Below, piece by piece: positions 40,210-46,640 of a stretch of 64,000 nucleotides of DNA. This DNA comes from Chrysaora quinquecirrha (taxonomy: Eukaryota; Cnidaria; Scyphozoa; Semaeostomeae; Pelagiidae): positions 11,196,214 to 11,260,213 of the forward strand of contig JACTAT010000037.1 in the NCBI GenBank assembly GCA_014526335.1, written 5' to 3'. Within the stretch, counting starts at the first letter, position 1. Each line of letters opens with the position of its first letter. The notes beneath the pieces are model-generated. The model saw only the letters and a program-made list of their open reading frames with translations. It was not told the DNA's origin and searched no databases. Position numbers and translations under genes: made by a program.

Positions 40210-40221
40210 ATTGCTAAAAGT

Positions 40222-40660
40222 CAGGGCTGTTAGCCTGAGAATTCACAACCAACGTGCAAATCCCGAAAAAAGCACAAAAATTGGTGCACATGGGTAATTT
40301 TACATGCAGAAAAAGATAAGATGCAGAAACCACCTGAAAAATGCTCCCAAGTGCTATTTTTAGATAGGGGTACTTGGTACCAGGCCTCCAAAGCAGTTTT
40401 ATGGAATAACTGCCGTCTGACAAGCAATACTGCCAAGAAAATTGGCAAAAGTGGGTAATCACGCATGCTTAAAAAGAAAGAGTGCATTCCATAACATAAA
40501 ATGCCCCAAAGTGCTATTTTTAGACTGGGGTACTTGGTTCCAGACCTCTGAAACAGTTTTAAACTTATGTGAAAATAGGTAGTAGCAGACCTCTGAAACA
40601 GTTTTATGTTATGAGTATCAGTACATGGAACAATAGTTGTCCATAAGCTGTCACTCACAC
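40222..40660 (-). repeat. Left subterminal array of the 4.3-kb element (161-bp unit, inverted)
   Basis: Contains GGTGCACATGGGTAATT, then GCAAAAGTGGGTAATCACGCATGCTTAAAAAG, and blocks CCAAGTGCTATTTTTAGA and TGGTACCAGGCCTC. The inverse of 43940-44489. Confidence 0.85.
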
Positions 40661-40743
40661 TTCAACAGATTTTCATCTTTAATTTTTAAAAGCGAAAGTA
40701 GGCCTAATTTTACTGTGATTCTTTAGCTTTCCATATTCTCGAA

Positions 40744-43700
40744 ATGTGCTCTCCGGTTTATATGAAAACAAATGCATTTATAGTTATAAAAGGCGTAATG
40801 TCAAGGGAAAAATTCAAGTTTGCTAATATCGTAGAGAATGTTTCTAATACTCATGATCCGTCACAAGAAATCAGTTCTGAAATAAATTGGGAAATATGCT
40901 TAATATGCCAAAAGGTGTCCACTTTGCAAACTTTCGAATGTCCAGCAAAAAAAGTACTCACACAGATAAAGCTTCTGGCTACCGAACGTTCTCAGAGCAA
41001 CTAAAAAAGTTTGAAGACCTTCGTGTATAACCCTGTTTACTAAAATCAAGAGTAAGTACTTTCACTCATGACGATCCTGCTGAGCATCTTTTTGCAAATA
41101 AAGAGAAGTTTCACAAATGCTGCAAAAACAAATATGATGATTACCACTATCAACATGCATGTAAGAAGTGAAAAAAATAAGCCAAGTGATGATGCCGACG
41201 TTCCTTTCCTACGGAGTACATGTGCAAGATATAGCGCAGACAATTTTCAGAGAGTGTGTTTTTTTGCGAGAAGAAAGAAGCAGACGCAAAGCTTTCAAGA
41301 GTACAAACGCTAGGGCTTGTTAAAAATGTTTACCATGCTGCCAAAATCCTTTCTGATCAAAAACTTTTAGCGAAACTCAGCGAAGGTGACTTAATAGCAA
41401 CTGAAGCCTGCAACCGCATATGGTTCATCTTCTGATACTGTGCAAAATGTCCATAGCACACGATTGAAAGAAGACATTTTGTCTCACATTCCAGCGTTGG
41501 AGTCTCAGAAAAAAGGCAACGAGGTTCTCTTCCCTCTACAAAAAGATTCGGAATTTGTTATATATCAAGCGTGTTTGCGAGACGATCAGGAAAATGGCAT
41601 TTGCCTTTCGCGAGCCGCCAGCATTCCGAGAACAAGTCTTTTCAAATGAGAAACCGAGCGAACTCGGACTTTTCGCATCTGGAAGTCAAGAGAAGTCTAT
41701 CCCCGTGTCTCTTGTCACAATGGTTAACGTGTTGATTGGGGATACCAATCTAATGGAAAGTGTATCACCTGCTGTTAACAAAGTTTCACAAATGATAGCT
41801 CAAGTCATCAGATTTAACATGATCAAATATACAAGATCTCAAAAAGCCAACATGGAAAATCTACAAGAACATCATTCTAAAATCAAGAAACGCTACTACC
41901 CTCTATACAGGACTCTTGATAAATTCAAAAACTAGGAAGAAGGGTCTATGGAATGAGCGTTTCATATGATAGGGCCAAGAATGTTCAACTTGCCATTACA
42001 AAGCAACTTTGTCAGGAGTACCAGCAACAAGGTACTGTTTTTCCACCTTCTTTGCAAAACGACATATTTAAAAATGCAGCCATCGATATAGATCACAATT
42101 CTTCGTCAGTAACAGCTAAAGAATCGTTTCCTGGGACCAGCATCTCTATTTTCCAACACCCAAAAACAGCGATTGATGTTCCACCAACAAATCTACAACT
42201 TGATGTTGAAGATGTTTATATTCAAATTGCCTGATTACTACACATCCATTCCTTCAAAAAATGCGAAGTTTTCGCTGCAACCTGTGAATAAAACAGAGAT
42301 GGCCAAGGTCAAAGCCAAGGATGAGTTCAAAAGATGGTTCTCTCGACTGGAGCAATTGAATCAAGAAAATAGTGACATCTATCTCAGTGAACGCATGTCT
42401 TGGTCAGCATTTCATGCAAATCAGCAAAATGGTGTTCCTGTTAAGTGTCAGTCAACCTTACTTCCTTTGATTAAAGAGTTGATCAATTCTGCAGCTATGG
42501 TTTGCCTTACTATGGATATAGTGAAGAAGATTTTGCTAAAAATAAATCCCAGTCAAGCACCAGTAATCAGAGTCTTGAGCTGGCTTGTACCTTCTTCTGC
42601 AACTTGCGTACCAATGAAGCAACCCTGCATCTCCGTTCGAAGAATGGATATCTCAACAAGAAGAAAAATCTGTTCCATTCAAGTATAGGCTCACCATGAT
42701 TGAACTTGAATCTATGATGCTGCTTCTTGTTAAAAGTCTTCTTGAGTCAAATTTTAAAATGTTTATCAGTGCTCTGGAGGAGCTTGCACCGTGGATGTTT
42801 GTGTTAGACCACACACATTATTCACGCTGGCTTCCTGTATTGATTAACGATTTAATGTTACTGTACACAAAAATTCCCAGAATTTACCATAAATTCATGA
42901 ATTTACATTTTACATTTAAAAAGACCAGCAGAAAGTTTTCAAGAATGCCTGAGGATCAAGCCCACGAGCAAAACAACAAAATTGTGCAAAAGGTATTCTC
43001 GAGAGTCAAACATCGTTGATGAAATGGATGGTAGGAGGACCTGAGATTGCACGGTTGTTGCATTCATTCAAAGACTCCGTAAACATGAAAGACGAGCTGA
43101 GTCACCATGAAGACACAGCTGAATATGAAAAACGGTTCAGAAAGGATGTTCTTTCACTTAGAGATTCTTTCGATGAACTTGGTAACCAGTTTGAAGACGC
43201 AAACATACTTGTAAACTTTGTTACAAAAACATCATGAATGAAGCTGCTGCGGAATCAGTTAGAAGTGCTGCAAGCATTGGTCAAAAGCAATATAATTCGT
43301 TTGTCAGTGAGAGGCTTGTGCGTTGTAACGTCTCTATATTTTCCTCGATATGGAAAAACACGTTACCCTTATTTAGGCAGAACAATCCATTTGCACTTCC
43401 AAGGCGAAATTGAAAACTGTCTCTCTCAAACAAGATTGCAAACTCTTTGCATCGCTGTATATTGCCTGCCAATCACGTGAAAGTAATCTCGAAGAATTTC
43501 TCTCCGACGGGAATCATGCCTATTCCCCCGCTTTGTCTGAATATGGAAATCTGAGGAAGGGGACAAAAGCTGATTTCCTTCAAATTTTAGAAACGAATGG
43601 CTCATCAGAATTTAATGTTCCACTTGCCACAGCAAAGGTGATAGATGGGGCAGCCCTGGTTCAGATGCTACCCCCAACAGAAGTAACAACCTTCAGCGAG

Positions 43701-43950
43701 TATAGTACAGAGGTATTTGCAAAAGCGGTTCGTATAGAACTAAAAACGGTTGGTACGAAGAGGATCGATGTCATGTTTGATTGGTACTTTGACAACAGCC
43801 TAAAGTCAGAAACAAGGGATAAGAGAGTTGAAGGTGTACAAATTTCAGTTTGCGAGTCAACACAAATTGCAGGAACTGGCACCAATTTTTTCGAGTGAAC
43901 GAAAACAAGGAGGAGCTCTTTACACTTTTGGCAAAAGTGATTACCCGTTT
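40744..43950 (+). pseudogene. Large uncharacterised protein of the 4.3-kb element, many frameshifts
   Basis: Read in order, switching frames: zinc-binding start WEICLICQKVSTLQTFECPA (40890); HKCCKNKYDDYHYQHACKK; FQRVCFF and SRVQTLGLVKNVYHAAKIL (41250-41380); TRLKEDILSHIPALESQKKG (41448); SLVTMVNVLIGDTNL; SVSYDRAKNVQLAITKQLC (41956) and AAIDIDHNSSSVTAKESFPG (42080), where a D-x-D-x-N motif sits; MSWSAFHANQQNG; PWMFVLDHTHYSRWLPVLI (42787); DQAHEQNNKIVQKV; GGPEIARLLHSF (43026); LFASLYIACQSRESNLEEF (43450); KVIDGAALVQMLPP; and FFRVNENKEELFTLL-like codons to 43950. The order matches a large uncharacterised family that I remember as highly repeated in cnidarian and mollusc genomes. Its place inside TIRs suggests that it is the element's own protein. 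At least eight shifts or stops make this copy dead. Confidence 0.7.
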
Positions 43951-44489
43951 TTGCCAATTTTCGTGGCAGTAAAGCTTAGAAGACAGCAGCTACAATATAA
44001 AACTGTTTCAGAGGTCTGGAATCCAGTATCCCAGTCTAAAAATAGCACTTTGGGTATTTTTATAGTAATAAACTGCATCCTATCTTTTTAAGCATGTGTG
44101 ATTACCCACTTTTGCCCATTTACACAGCAGCATTGTTTATAAGACAGCAGTTATAACGTAAAACAGTTTCAGAGGTCTGGAGCCAAGTACCCAAGTCTCA
44201 AAATAGCACTTTGGGCCATTTTGTAGTTATGGAATGCATTCTATCTTTTTAAGCATGCGTGATTACCCACTTTTGCCAATTTTCTTGGCAGTATTGCTTA
44301 TCAGACGGCAGTTATTCCATAAAACTTCTTTGGAGGCCTGGTTCCAAGTACCCATTTTTAAAAACAGCTGTTGGGGGCATTTCTCAGGTAGGGTCTGCAT
44401 TTTATCTTTTTCAGCGTGTGAAATTACCCATGTGCACCAATTTTTGTGCTTTCTTCCTGATTTGCACGTTGGTTTTGCAAAGCACCCTG
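43940..44489 (+). repeat. Right subterminal array of the 4.3-kb element, period about 161 bp
   Basis: GATTACCC(G/A)CTTTTGCC recurs near 43940, 44100 and 44261, and a diverged AATTACCCATGTGCACC near 44425; spacing about 161. Shared inner blocks: TAAAACTGTTTCAGAGGTCTGGA and AAAATAGCACTTTGGG. Confidence 0.85.
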
Positions 44490-44501
44490 ACTATAATTGC
44501 T

Positions 44502-46640
44502 ACCTAACATGAATTAGAAATATCAGAGTCTGCAGGTCATTTTTCTAATTTTTTGCTTTTCACTAGGGATTCTGAGCATTCTTGTCTTCCTTTTGAGGTT
44601 GACTCGGCCTGAGATCTGCTGAAGTCTGGGGAGGGGTGAGAACCCTGCGTTTCATGCAGATAGCGGCAGAGACTGCAATTGTAACTCTGCAGATTGTATG
44701 GCTTCATGTGATATTTCAGGGACAAGATGACTGGATTATAATCAATCTTTTCGCAAGCAAGCAGCTTAAGACCAATCAAAGATCTGGTGTATAGCAGAGC
44801 CAAATCTCTTGGTCTCGTTGATGACCCCTAGTGGGACATCTTGTACCATTCAGCAAGCAGAACAGCAGCATCTAAAGGATCTTCCCAGGGAGAGGAATAG
44901 AGCTGTTTGCAGGCCATGGAGTGGTCATACTCCTATCGTTATACACAGCATTTTTGTGATGAAAGTTAAATTACTGAAATCAATGGGAATTCGAACATAG
45001 CTACTTTAAGAAGCACTGCTGAAACTCTGCTCCATCATTTTCATGACTGCCAGAAAATGTAGCCCTTTGTTACATTACATTGTTACATTACATTGTTACA
45101 TTATACCAGAGTAAAATTATACCTTTTCCGCGATTTAAAAAATTGAGGTTACTGTGTGCTGTTTTTTACTGTATAAGTACTTTTACTATATTACTAAATC
45201 CTCCACAAGATGTTTTTCATGCATCCCTGTACTACCATCACTATCTACATATGCATTTCTGCCCTGTCTCTACCCTTCCCACACCATTTTGGGTGATGTA
45301 TGTGTGTACTACTATGTGCCGATGCAACTATTAACAGTCTCCTCCCTCTCCACAACATTCGAGTCATGTATGCCTGTACTACTGTGTAACTATGTTTCTT
45401 ACGACCTTACTAATTTCCCAGTATTAGGAACTTTTAGTTTCACACATGATTCACATCATATTGGTTGACTACCATTTTCCGTCCTGTCGATGCGCACCTG
45501 CACTAAAGTAAAAGTAGAGTGTTTTTTGAGGGTATTTATGTTGATTTTCTTGTATTTCTATCATCTCCTGTATGTGCTATTGTTGTTAATTCCCTAACTG
45601 TACTGTTTTTTTTGTTTAATAAGTATGCATTTGTGTGGGCAAGTTATTGTTCGTATAGGCACAGGGGCAATTATTCATTCTCTAATATGTTGAAGAATAG
45701 CTCATGGATTTCACTATTCTTGTCACTAAAAGGATGAATCAACTTTAACATCGTACCAATTCCCACAAATGATTGTTTCCTCATTAGTATCCTTCCTTTA
45801 CGCTCAATCAATATTTTAAACATGAAAAGGAGGCTGATGGCCCCCGAAAAAACCCGTACAACATCAATTGTCAAAATCAGCACCCTTGAATGGACTACCA
45901 CATTTTTTTCATTAATTTTGCCCTCATGCGACCATTCCCCTATTCTCTGCCTGGTCTAGTAGGAATTTTACACTATTTTTGAAGTAATATCCTTTTTTAA
46001 CTTACCATTATGCTTTAATTTCAAGTTTGACTTACATCAACTTTTCCTTGTTACTTCCTCTGTTGGAAACTCTAGAGGCTATCTTTTAAACACAAAAATG
46101 GAATGACAGAATTGAATTATGGAATAACAAAATGATGAAATAGAATGAGGGCCTATTTAGTTCATACTTTCAATTTCACCTGACAGTGCTTATAAATCAG
46201 TACTTTGCCTTAACAGATAAGTATGAAGAAATCATGAAGTTCCATTCAATTCCACTTTTCATAGCATCATTGCATGTTTTCTAAAACAATTTGTTGCTTT
46301 TATGAAAACGATTCCAATTTCACTAAAACACTTTGTTTTTCTAAAACGATTTTATAAAATGCTTCAGAATCCTCTATTGCCAATGAAGAATTTTTGCAAG
46401 TAGCATGTAGTAAGGTAATAAACATCATCATCAGCAAAATTATCCCACCCCAACCTTATTAGGACCCTTTGTTTAATAATTTCCATCTTTTTATATTAAT
46501 TAGGTATTTGAAGAAAGCAAGATTTTCTTGGTGTCAATATGATCCAGGTCACAACCTTATTCTTGATATACTGTGTCATAGCCCATGAGTTGAAACTTCC
46601 CACTGGCTGTTTATTAAGTTTATTTTACAGACTCGACCCT
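44502..46640. other. No gene recognised
   Basis: Contains a short TTACATTACATTG repeat (45065-45110), long pyrimidine-rich runs and an 88-codon minus frame at 44803-44537 (SLKYHMKPYNLQSYNCSLC) that looks mildly protein-like but is unassigned. Confidence 0.4.

Follow-up and report, generated by a model that had tools for sequence, protein, structure and literature searches.

The question raised by this locus is which kind of mobile element occupies it and how such an element moves. The window, a stretch of 64,000 nucleotides from the scyphozoan Chrysaora quinquecirrha, holds a gene-like region framed by inverted repeats, which an earlier note had read as a complete transposon of a new group with 6–7 bp target duplications.

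The element in the window and its copies

The inverted outer ends described in that note are present, AAGTCAGGG on the left and TAGTCAGGG on the right, as are the inverted units of about 161 bp at both ends, with three 161-nt copies at 43926–44408 and 252-nt arms that are 90% complementary. Similarity to a single gene covers most of the interior, in line with the one gene proposed there. The parts of the element are:

40218–44493, plus strand: whole element, an internally deleted copy of 4276 bp with its gene on the plus strand, delimited by the 3-bp duplication and TAGT termini
40215–40217, no strand: left target-site duplication, TAA, by direct-repeat comparison
44494–44496, no strand: right target-site duplication, TAA, by direct-repeat comparison
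40218–40221, plus strand: 5' terminus, AAGT (TAGT in copies C215 and C216)
44490–44493, minus strand: 3' terminus, TAGT on this strand
40271–40284, plus strand: block AGCAynAAAmTTGG with long spacer, 53 bp from the 5' terminus, exact match
44437–44450, minus strand: block AGCAynAAAmTTGG with short spacer, 43 bp from the 3' terminus, exact match
40244–40495, plus strand: left arm of the long inverted repeat (pair I1, 90% complementary), left subterminal units
44226–44477, minus strand: right arm of the long inverted repeat (pair I1)
43926–44408, minus strand: right subterminal array, three 161-bp units
40354–40363, no strand: CTAWWWWTAG site, 136 bp from the 5' terminus
40514–40523, no strand: CTAWWWWTAG site, 296 bp from the 5' terminus
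44036–44045, no strand: CTAWWWWTAG site, 448 bp from the 3' terminus
40879–41408, plus strand: remnant of the N-terminal Cys-rich (CxxC) parts
41950–42177, plus strand: remnant of the first catalytic Asp region (DIDHNSSS)
42636–42992, plus strand: remnant of the catalytic Glu block (DQAHEQNN), the second-Asp segment being absent directly upstream
43398–43933, plus strand: remnant of the start of the nuclease domain, the nuclease core and CXC tail being missing

The element is not complete, as had been supposed. Coding similarity runs through three forward frames, skips residues 670–777 of protein P0001, where the second catalytic Asp lies, and stops near residue 1219, so that the window copy lacks the nuclease core and the Cys-rich tail. 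With its frames broken and both the second-Asp segment and the nuclease core gone, this copy is dead; it would now move solely with proteins supplied by other copies. C215 and C216 have the left flank of the window copy, and C215 has its right flank as well, which indicates duplicated copies of one insertion site.

The genome searched (328 Mb in 740 contigs) contains at least 147 protein matches to one block of the gene (150 scored of 277 candidates) and at least 62 matches to the left 260 bp of the element (40 scored of 531 candidates). Four gene-bearing copies elsewhere measure 6,550–7,396 bp, and among the ends listed many pairs lie only 1.5–4.5 kb apart, so shortened copies are common. The open frames from the first Met in L039 and L040 encode 1,268 and 1,270 amino acids, keep 12 of the 12 checked catalytic positions and lack the N-terminal ~250 residues of full database proteins; the frame of L042 stops ahead of most nuclease positions.

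According to the earlier note, gene copies lying without these ends would speak against a transposon. All five gene copies that we fetched with their flanks (L039–L042, picked for long frames, and L088, picked since its ends were known) have ends of the element type. In the part of the genome covered by the listed ends, however, a strict-pattern end lies within 7 kb of only 17 of 41 gene matches; the other 24 have none and may be decayed, diverged or truncated. These 24 would also suit a host gene family lying between repeats by chance, as would the labels of named family members, which include a Capitella protein and an oyster protein and are mostly called hypothetical or uncharacterised. We regard such a host gene as very improbable in view of the insertion sites with 3-bp duplications, the hundreds of matching ends, the occurrence in both orientations and the decayed copies.

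Two local amplifications were also seen. Gene matches at positions 2507044, 2513602 and 2520169 of contig C424 (genome G000) lie on one strand at a spacing of ~6.56 kb, which suggests tandem amplification. In L039 (1308 and 1911) and L041 (1143 and 1746) the whole 3' end occurs twice in tandem, 603 bp apart, with an identical 20 bases before each end; this locus is present twice in the assembly.

Target-site duplication and offset ends

Duplications were counted in 11 copies at distinct sites with both ends readable, the terminus being set at TAGT or its changed equivalent; L041 was left out, its end motif being one base different and its insertion site that of L039. An exact 3-bp direct repeat lies at the TAGT boundary in 10 of the 11 copies, with none in C155. 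The repeat is TAA in the window, and TGG, TTA, ATG, AAA, TAT, TGT, AAT, CAG and AGG in the others, the AAA one reaching 5 bp. Mismatched left/right end pairs, used as a control, match in 0 of 110. Direct repeats of 6, 7 or 8 bp occur in none of the 11 copies, which rules out the 6–7 bp duplication read previously. The ATTGCTA flanks exist, at 40210–40216 and 44496–44502, but are not the target duplication: on the left the sequence ends one base short of the boundary, on the right it starts two bases past it, and it may derive from a tandem repeat present in the target. ATTGCT is likewise found before the left end of a separate insertion (C179/C378, left flank of L046–L048), reflecting either target preference or a tandem repeat. 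The suggested search for an empty site of the window insertion found none, the joined flanks giving five partial matches, all at three filled places.

The two ends of the element differ in the distance from TAGT to the block AGCAynAAAmTTGG. The five gene-bearing copies, chosen without any end motif, provide an unselected test, and alignment of both their ends shows TAGT and the block conserved (the latter weaker in L042), while all five 3' ends show a 10-bp gap and L039 has one extra base. Among the 11 copies the block starts 53–54 bp from one terminus and 43–44 bp from the other, the difference being 10 in nine copies, 9 in L039 and 11 in C378; in L073 the block lies at 43. Genome-wide, the pattern TAGTN{30,60}AGCAYNAAAMTTGG gave 416 matches vs 9 for the reversed control. 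Gaps of 37–41 account for 197 matches (control 2) and gaps of 47–51 for 198 (control 1), the latter including some short ends with an upstream TAGT (4 of 100 listed) and a few chance matches. At gaps of 42–46 there are 17 matches (control 0); 13 of them are short ends that have another TAGT ahead of the true terminus, which the remaining 4 are not.

We then compared each end with its neighbours, using 193 listed ends: 100 of the 197 short ones and 93 long ones, comprising 92 rows of the 198 and one 70-base end (C179), with four rows carrying an extra TAGT in a short-end flank and four beyond the last short row left out. Nearest convergent neighbours less than 10 kb apart form 50 pairs among these listed ends, 49 of which join a long and a short end, with a difference of exactly 10 in 45. 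The sole homotypic pair (C117) consists of ends from two different families, its inner end lying inside a one-of-each pair. Relative to the gene, all 24 combinations place the long end upstream and the short end downstream (17 gene matches with an end within 7 kb, from the 95 of the 147 gene matches used for this count).

A 12/23-like rule may extend beyond the RAG and P lineages: the transposase of this Academ-type element, which brings its own flap nuclease, would take only a long (5') with a short (3') end, each made of TAGT, 39 or 49 bases and AGCAynAAAmTTGG, and phased units of ~160 bp would help complex assembly. We give this reading an even chance. The 10-base spacing may force one-of-each pairing of ends, for which common descent alone would also suffice. 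It is quite possible, though less likely than not, that the 10-bp difference is a frozen ancestral accident with no role in pairing, since elements are copied whole and one-of-each pairs are, on general reasoning, expected by descent. Nine long ends of different families, hand-picked at equal length with the 68-base family left out, argue against such an accident: the 26 bases after TAGT average 39% identity, ungapped, yet total end length stays at 56–59 or 65–70 bases among the ends listed, so that length seems to be kept and sequence not. The identity of TAGT and the block in the same nine ends (94% and 93%) is partly by construction, because the pattern that fixes both yielded seven or more of them. 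In addition, among 97 of the 416 pattern matches some end pairs have shifted together and kept the difference of 10 (66/56, 68/58, 58/68 and 56/66), while 57/66 and 67/56 did not. Asymmetric ends are also used by two transposases of similar folds, according to excerpts of PMC3688188 and PMC8289069.

In the proposed mechanism, the zinc-binding domain of the transposase would bind the 14-bp block, and the enzyme would synapse a long with a short end, the two differing by one helical turn, as in the P element and RAG. Cutting would occur at TAGT and both ends would be joined to target strands 3 bp apart, host repair of this stagger giving the 3-bp duplication. The nuclease could remove flaps or process other branched intermediates, either at the excised ends or in the donor gap, and the phased units could offer the transposase or a host factor a series of sites to bind. 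The end block (40271–40284 and 44437–44450) reads AGCACAAAAATTGG, with an A-run like that of the RSS nonamer ACAAAAACC; this likeness is probably a coincidence.

Subterminal units

A repeat finder detected arrays with a period of 158–167 bp; L040, L042 and L088 have them at both ends, the window copy, L039 and L041 at a single end. The other end of the window copy has two units, as found by inverted-repeat comparison, and the 3' end of L039 and L041 has one unit followed by the 603-bp tandem duplication of the whole end. CTAWWWWTAG occurs 3 times in the window copy, 6 in L039, 7 in L040, 7 in L042 and 13 in L088, where 12 of the 13 lie in arrays. For 32 of the 36 termini, two of which are listed twice, the distance to the first site is 124–127 or 135–136 bp, and most of those 32 have additional sites spaced ~160 bp apart; L050, L052, L055 and one end of L064 are the exceptions. 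At the 3' end of the window copy the nearer sites, at offsets 126 and 287, carry two changes and one change, and the 5' end of L039 has an additional site with one mismatch at 18. The LIN54-type motif TTYGAA is not denser in the ends than in the middle in four of five elements, and slightly denser in the ends of L040.

These units could serve host or element transcription or chromatin instead of transposition, with a nucleosome per unit and a MEF2-type factor, a serious possibility that we place somewhat short of even. CTAWWWWTAG fits a MEF2-type consensus, 160 bp is near the nucleosome repeat, and the 59,724 bp of the window outside the element contain a single such site. However, at both ends, even the one that follows the gene, the sites are in phase with the terminus and show the 10-bp offset again, and the units at the two ends face opposite ways. 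Moreover, the end repeats of Galileo, a member of the P superfamily, hold transposase binding sites (PMC3688188).

The encoded protein and its relation to known transposons

The large protein was previously taken for the mobility protein, which it very probably is. The RNase H fold with Asp/Asp/Glu that had been suggested as a check is found in the predicted structure, with an RNase H-like core and the D, D and E residues positioned as expected in 56 or 57 of 57 sequences. The best solved-structure matches in VIA-align are DDE transposases, the P element being the closest solved fold. A separate flap-nuclease fold is predicted as well, with a set of acidic residues of the XPG/Rad2/FEN1/Exo1 type and 12–17% identity to Exo1, FEN1 and XPG rows in structural alignments. 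The single protein encoded by the longer relatives within this genome is predicted to combine a DDE transposase domain with an XPG/FEN1-like nuclease.

Searches by other routes gave little. Neither model had a Foldseek match at E ≤ 0.001; a PDB sequence search with L040 gave no match at E ≤ 1, and one with a profile gave two weak, apparently unrelated matches (E 0.83 and 1.1). No transposase model of Pfam matches, and the only Pfam family common to several members is DUF6589, of unknown function, in 10 of 30 rows. In P0008 (residues 752–944) it overlaps the part of the transposase holding the catalytic Glu block, which suggests that DUF6589 is tied to the predicted DDE transposase fold. Within the library searched, we found no paper combining Academ, XPG and transposase, and none among the top-ranked results combining any two of DUF6589, PF20231 and transpos-.

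Distant relatives with 28% identity (L094 and L095) occur on contigs of bacterial MAG or symbiont bins, labelled Planctomycetota and Bathymodiolus symbiont. They have the nuclease end and Cys-rich tail, and no long tandem repeat or CTAWWWWTAG was found in them, L094 beginning inside the gene with its 5' side outside the contig; both probably come from contaminating animal DNA and form a second family branch. P0118 and P0217, relatives that carry a Sedimenticola MAG label, are likewise likely to be animal sequence in a bacterial bin. Viral contigs gave no relative, only 45 unconfirmed pattern matches.

In our judgement the window element is quite probably a decayed, internally deleted cut-and-paste transposon whose longer relatives encode a predicted DDE transposase with an XPG/FEN1-like nuclease, AcademX of the Academ superfamily being the most likely home. 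The nuclease of AcademX is of XPG type. Excerpts of PMC10045372 describe AcademX as nuclease-encoding with 3–4 bp duplications, and AcademH as helicase-encoding with 9–10 bp duplications. Because the 3-bp duplication and the encoded nuclease agree with the AcademX reports, we file the element as a likely Academ member, placed by described traits. Academ belongs to the DDE/D superfamilies, its elements are long, and it is found in molluscs, including bivalves (mean curated length 5565 bp), and in Capitella with few ORFs, as stated in PMC10294476.

The new group proposed in the earlier note is not needed, as a lineage with a nuclease and 3–4 bp duplications has already been reported as AcademX. 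A new superfamily, resembling AcademX only through a separately recruited nuclease and short duplications, is unlikely in our view. It would fit the Pfam results, with DUF6589 as the sole shared family and no transposase match, and the facts that the closest solved fold is the P element and that the likeness to Academ is one of description. Against it, all three AcademX traits (DDE domain, nuclease and 3–4 bp duplication) agree, and the oyster and Capitella proteins of the family come from groups in which Academ is reported (PMC10294476).

These results give a likely function to a very common animal gene family, present in databases as 'hypothetical' or 'Tesmin/TSO1-like', and link DUF6589 to a predicted DDE transposase fold. 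The end rule is sharp enough to be of help in annotating these elements with nothing but their DNA. Should pairing depend on the offset ends, the 12/23 logic of antibody gene assembly would operate in another, separate lineage of transposons that has a flap nuclease of its own. DDE transposases that possess a helical insertion domain would then share asymmetric synapsis as a general trait, and Academ would stand near P and RAG.

The element can be set beside five known systems. It is like AcademX in its predicted DDE domain, encoded XPG-type nuclease and 3-bp duplication; no difference is demonstrated, the phased ~160-bp units and the 43/53 rule being absent from those excerpts of published descriptions that were examined. 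AcademH differs by its helicase and 9–10 bp duplication, whereas here the duplication is 3 bp and a Pfam scan of 30 rows gave no helicase model. P elements have 8-bp duplications and a THAP domain, and we know of no XPG nuclease in them. The predicted catalytic fold is shared with the P superfamily, whereas an 8-bp duplication is seen in 0 of 11 copies and the scan of 30 rows gave no THAP match at E ≤ 0.1. XPG, Rad2, FEN1 and Exo1 are similar in predicted fold and acidic set and differ in that the nuclease is here fused behind a transposase. RAG, Transib and ProtoRAG have CAC termini and a 5-bp duplication, in contrast to TAGT, 3 bp and an extra nuclease domain here, and Transib and RAG, like the element, combine two spacer lengths, each found at one end. 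The main surprise is that fold and end geometry agree with the P element and RAG precedents. The P transposase site is given as bp 53–63 of the 5' end and 41–51 of the 3' end (PMC3688188), and the spacers of RAG and ProtoRAG as 12/23 and 27/31 bp (PMC8289069).
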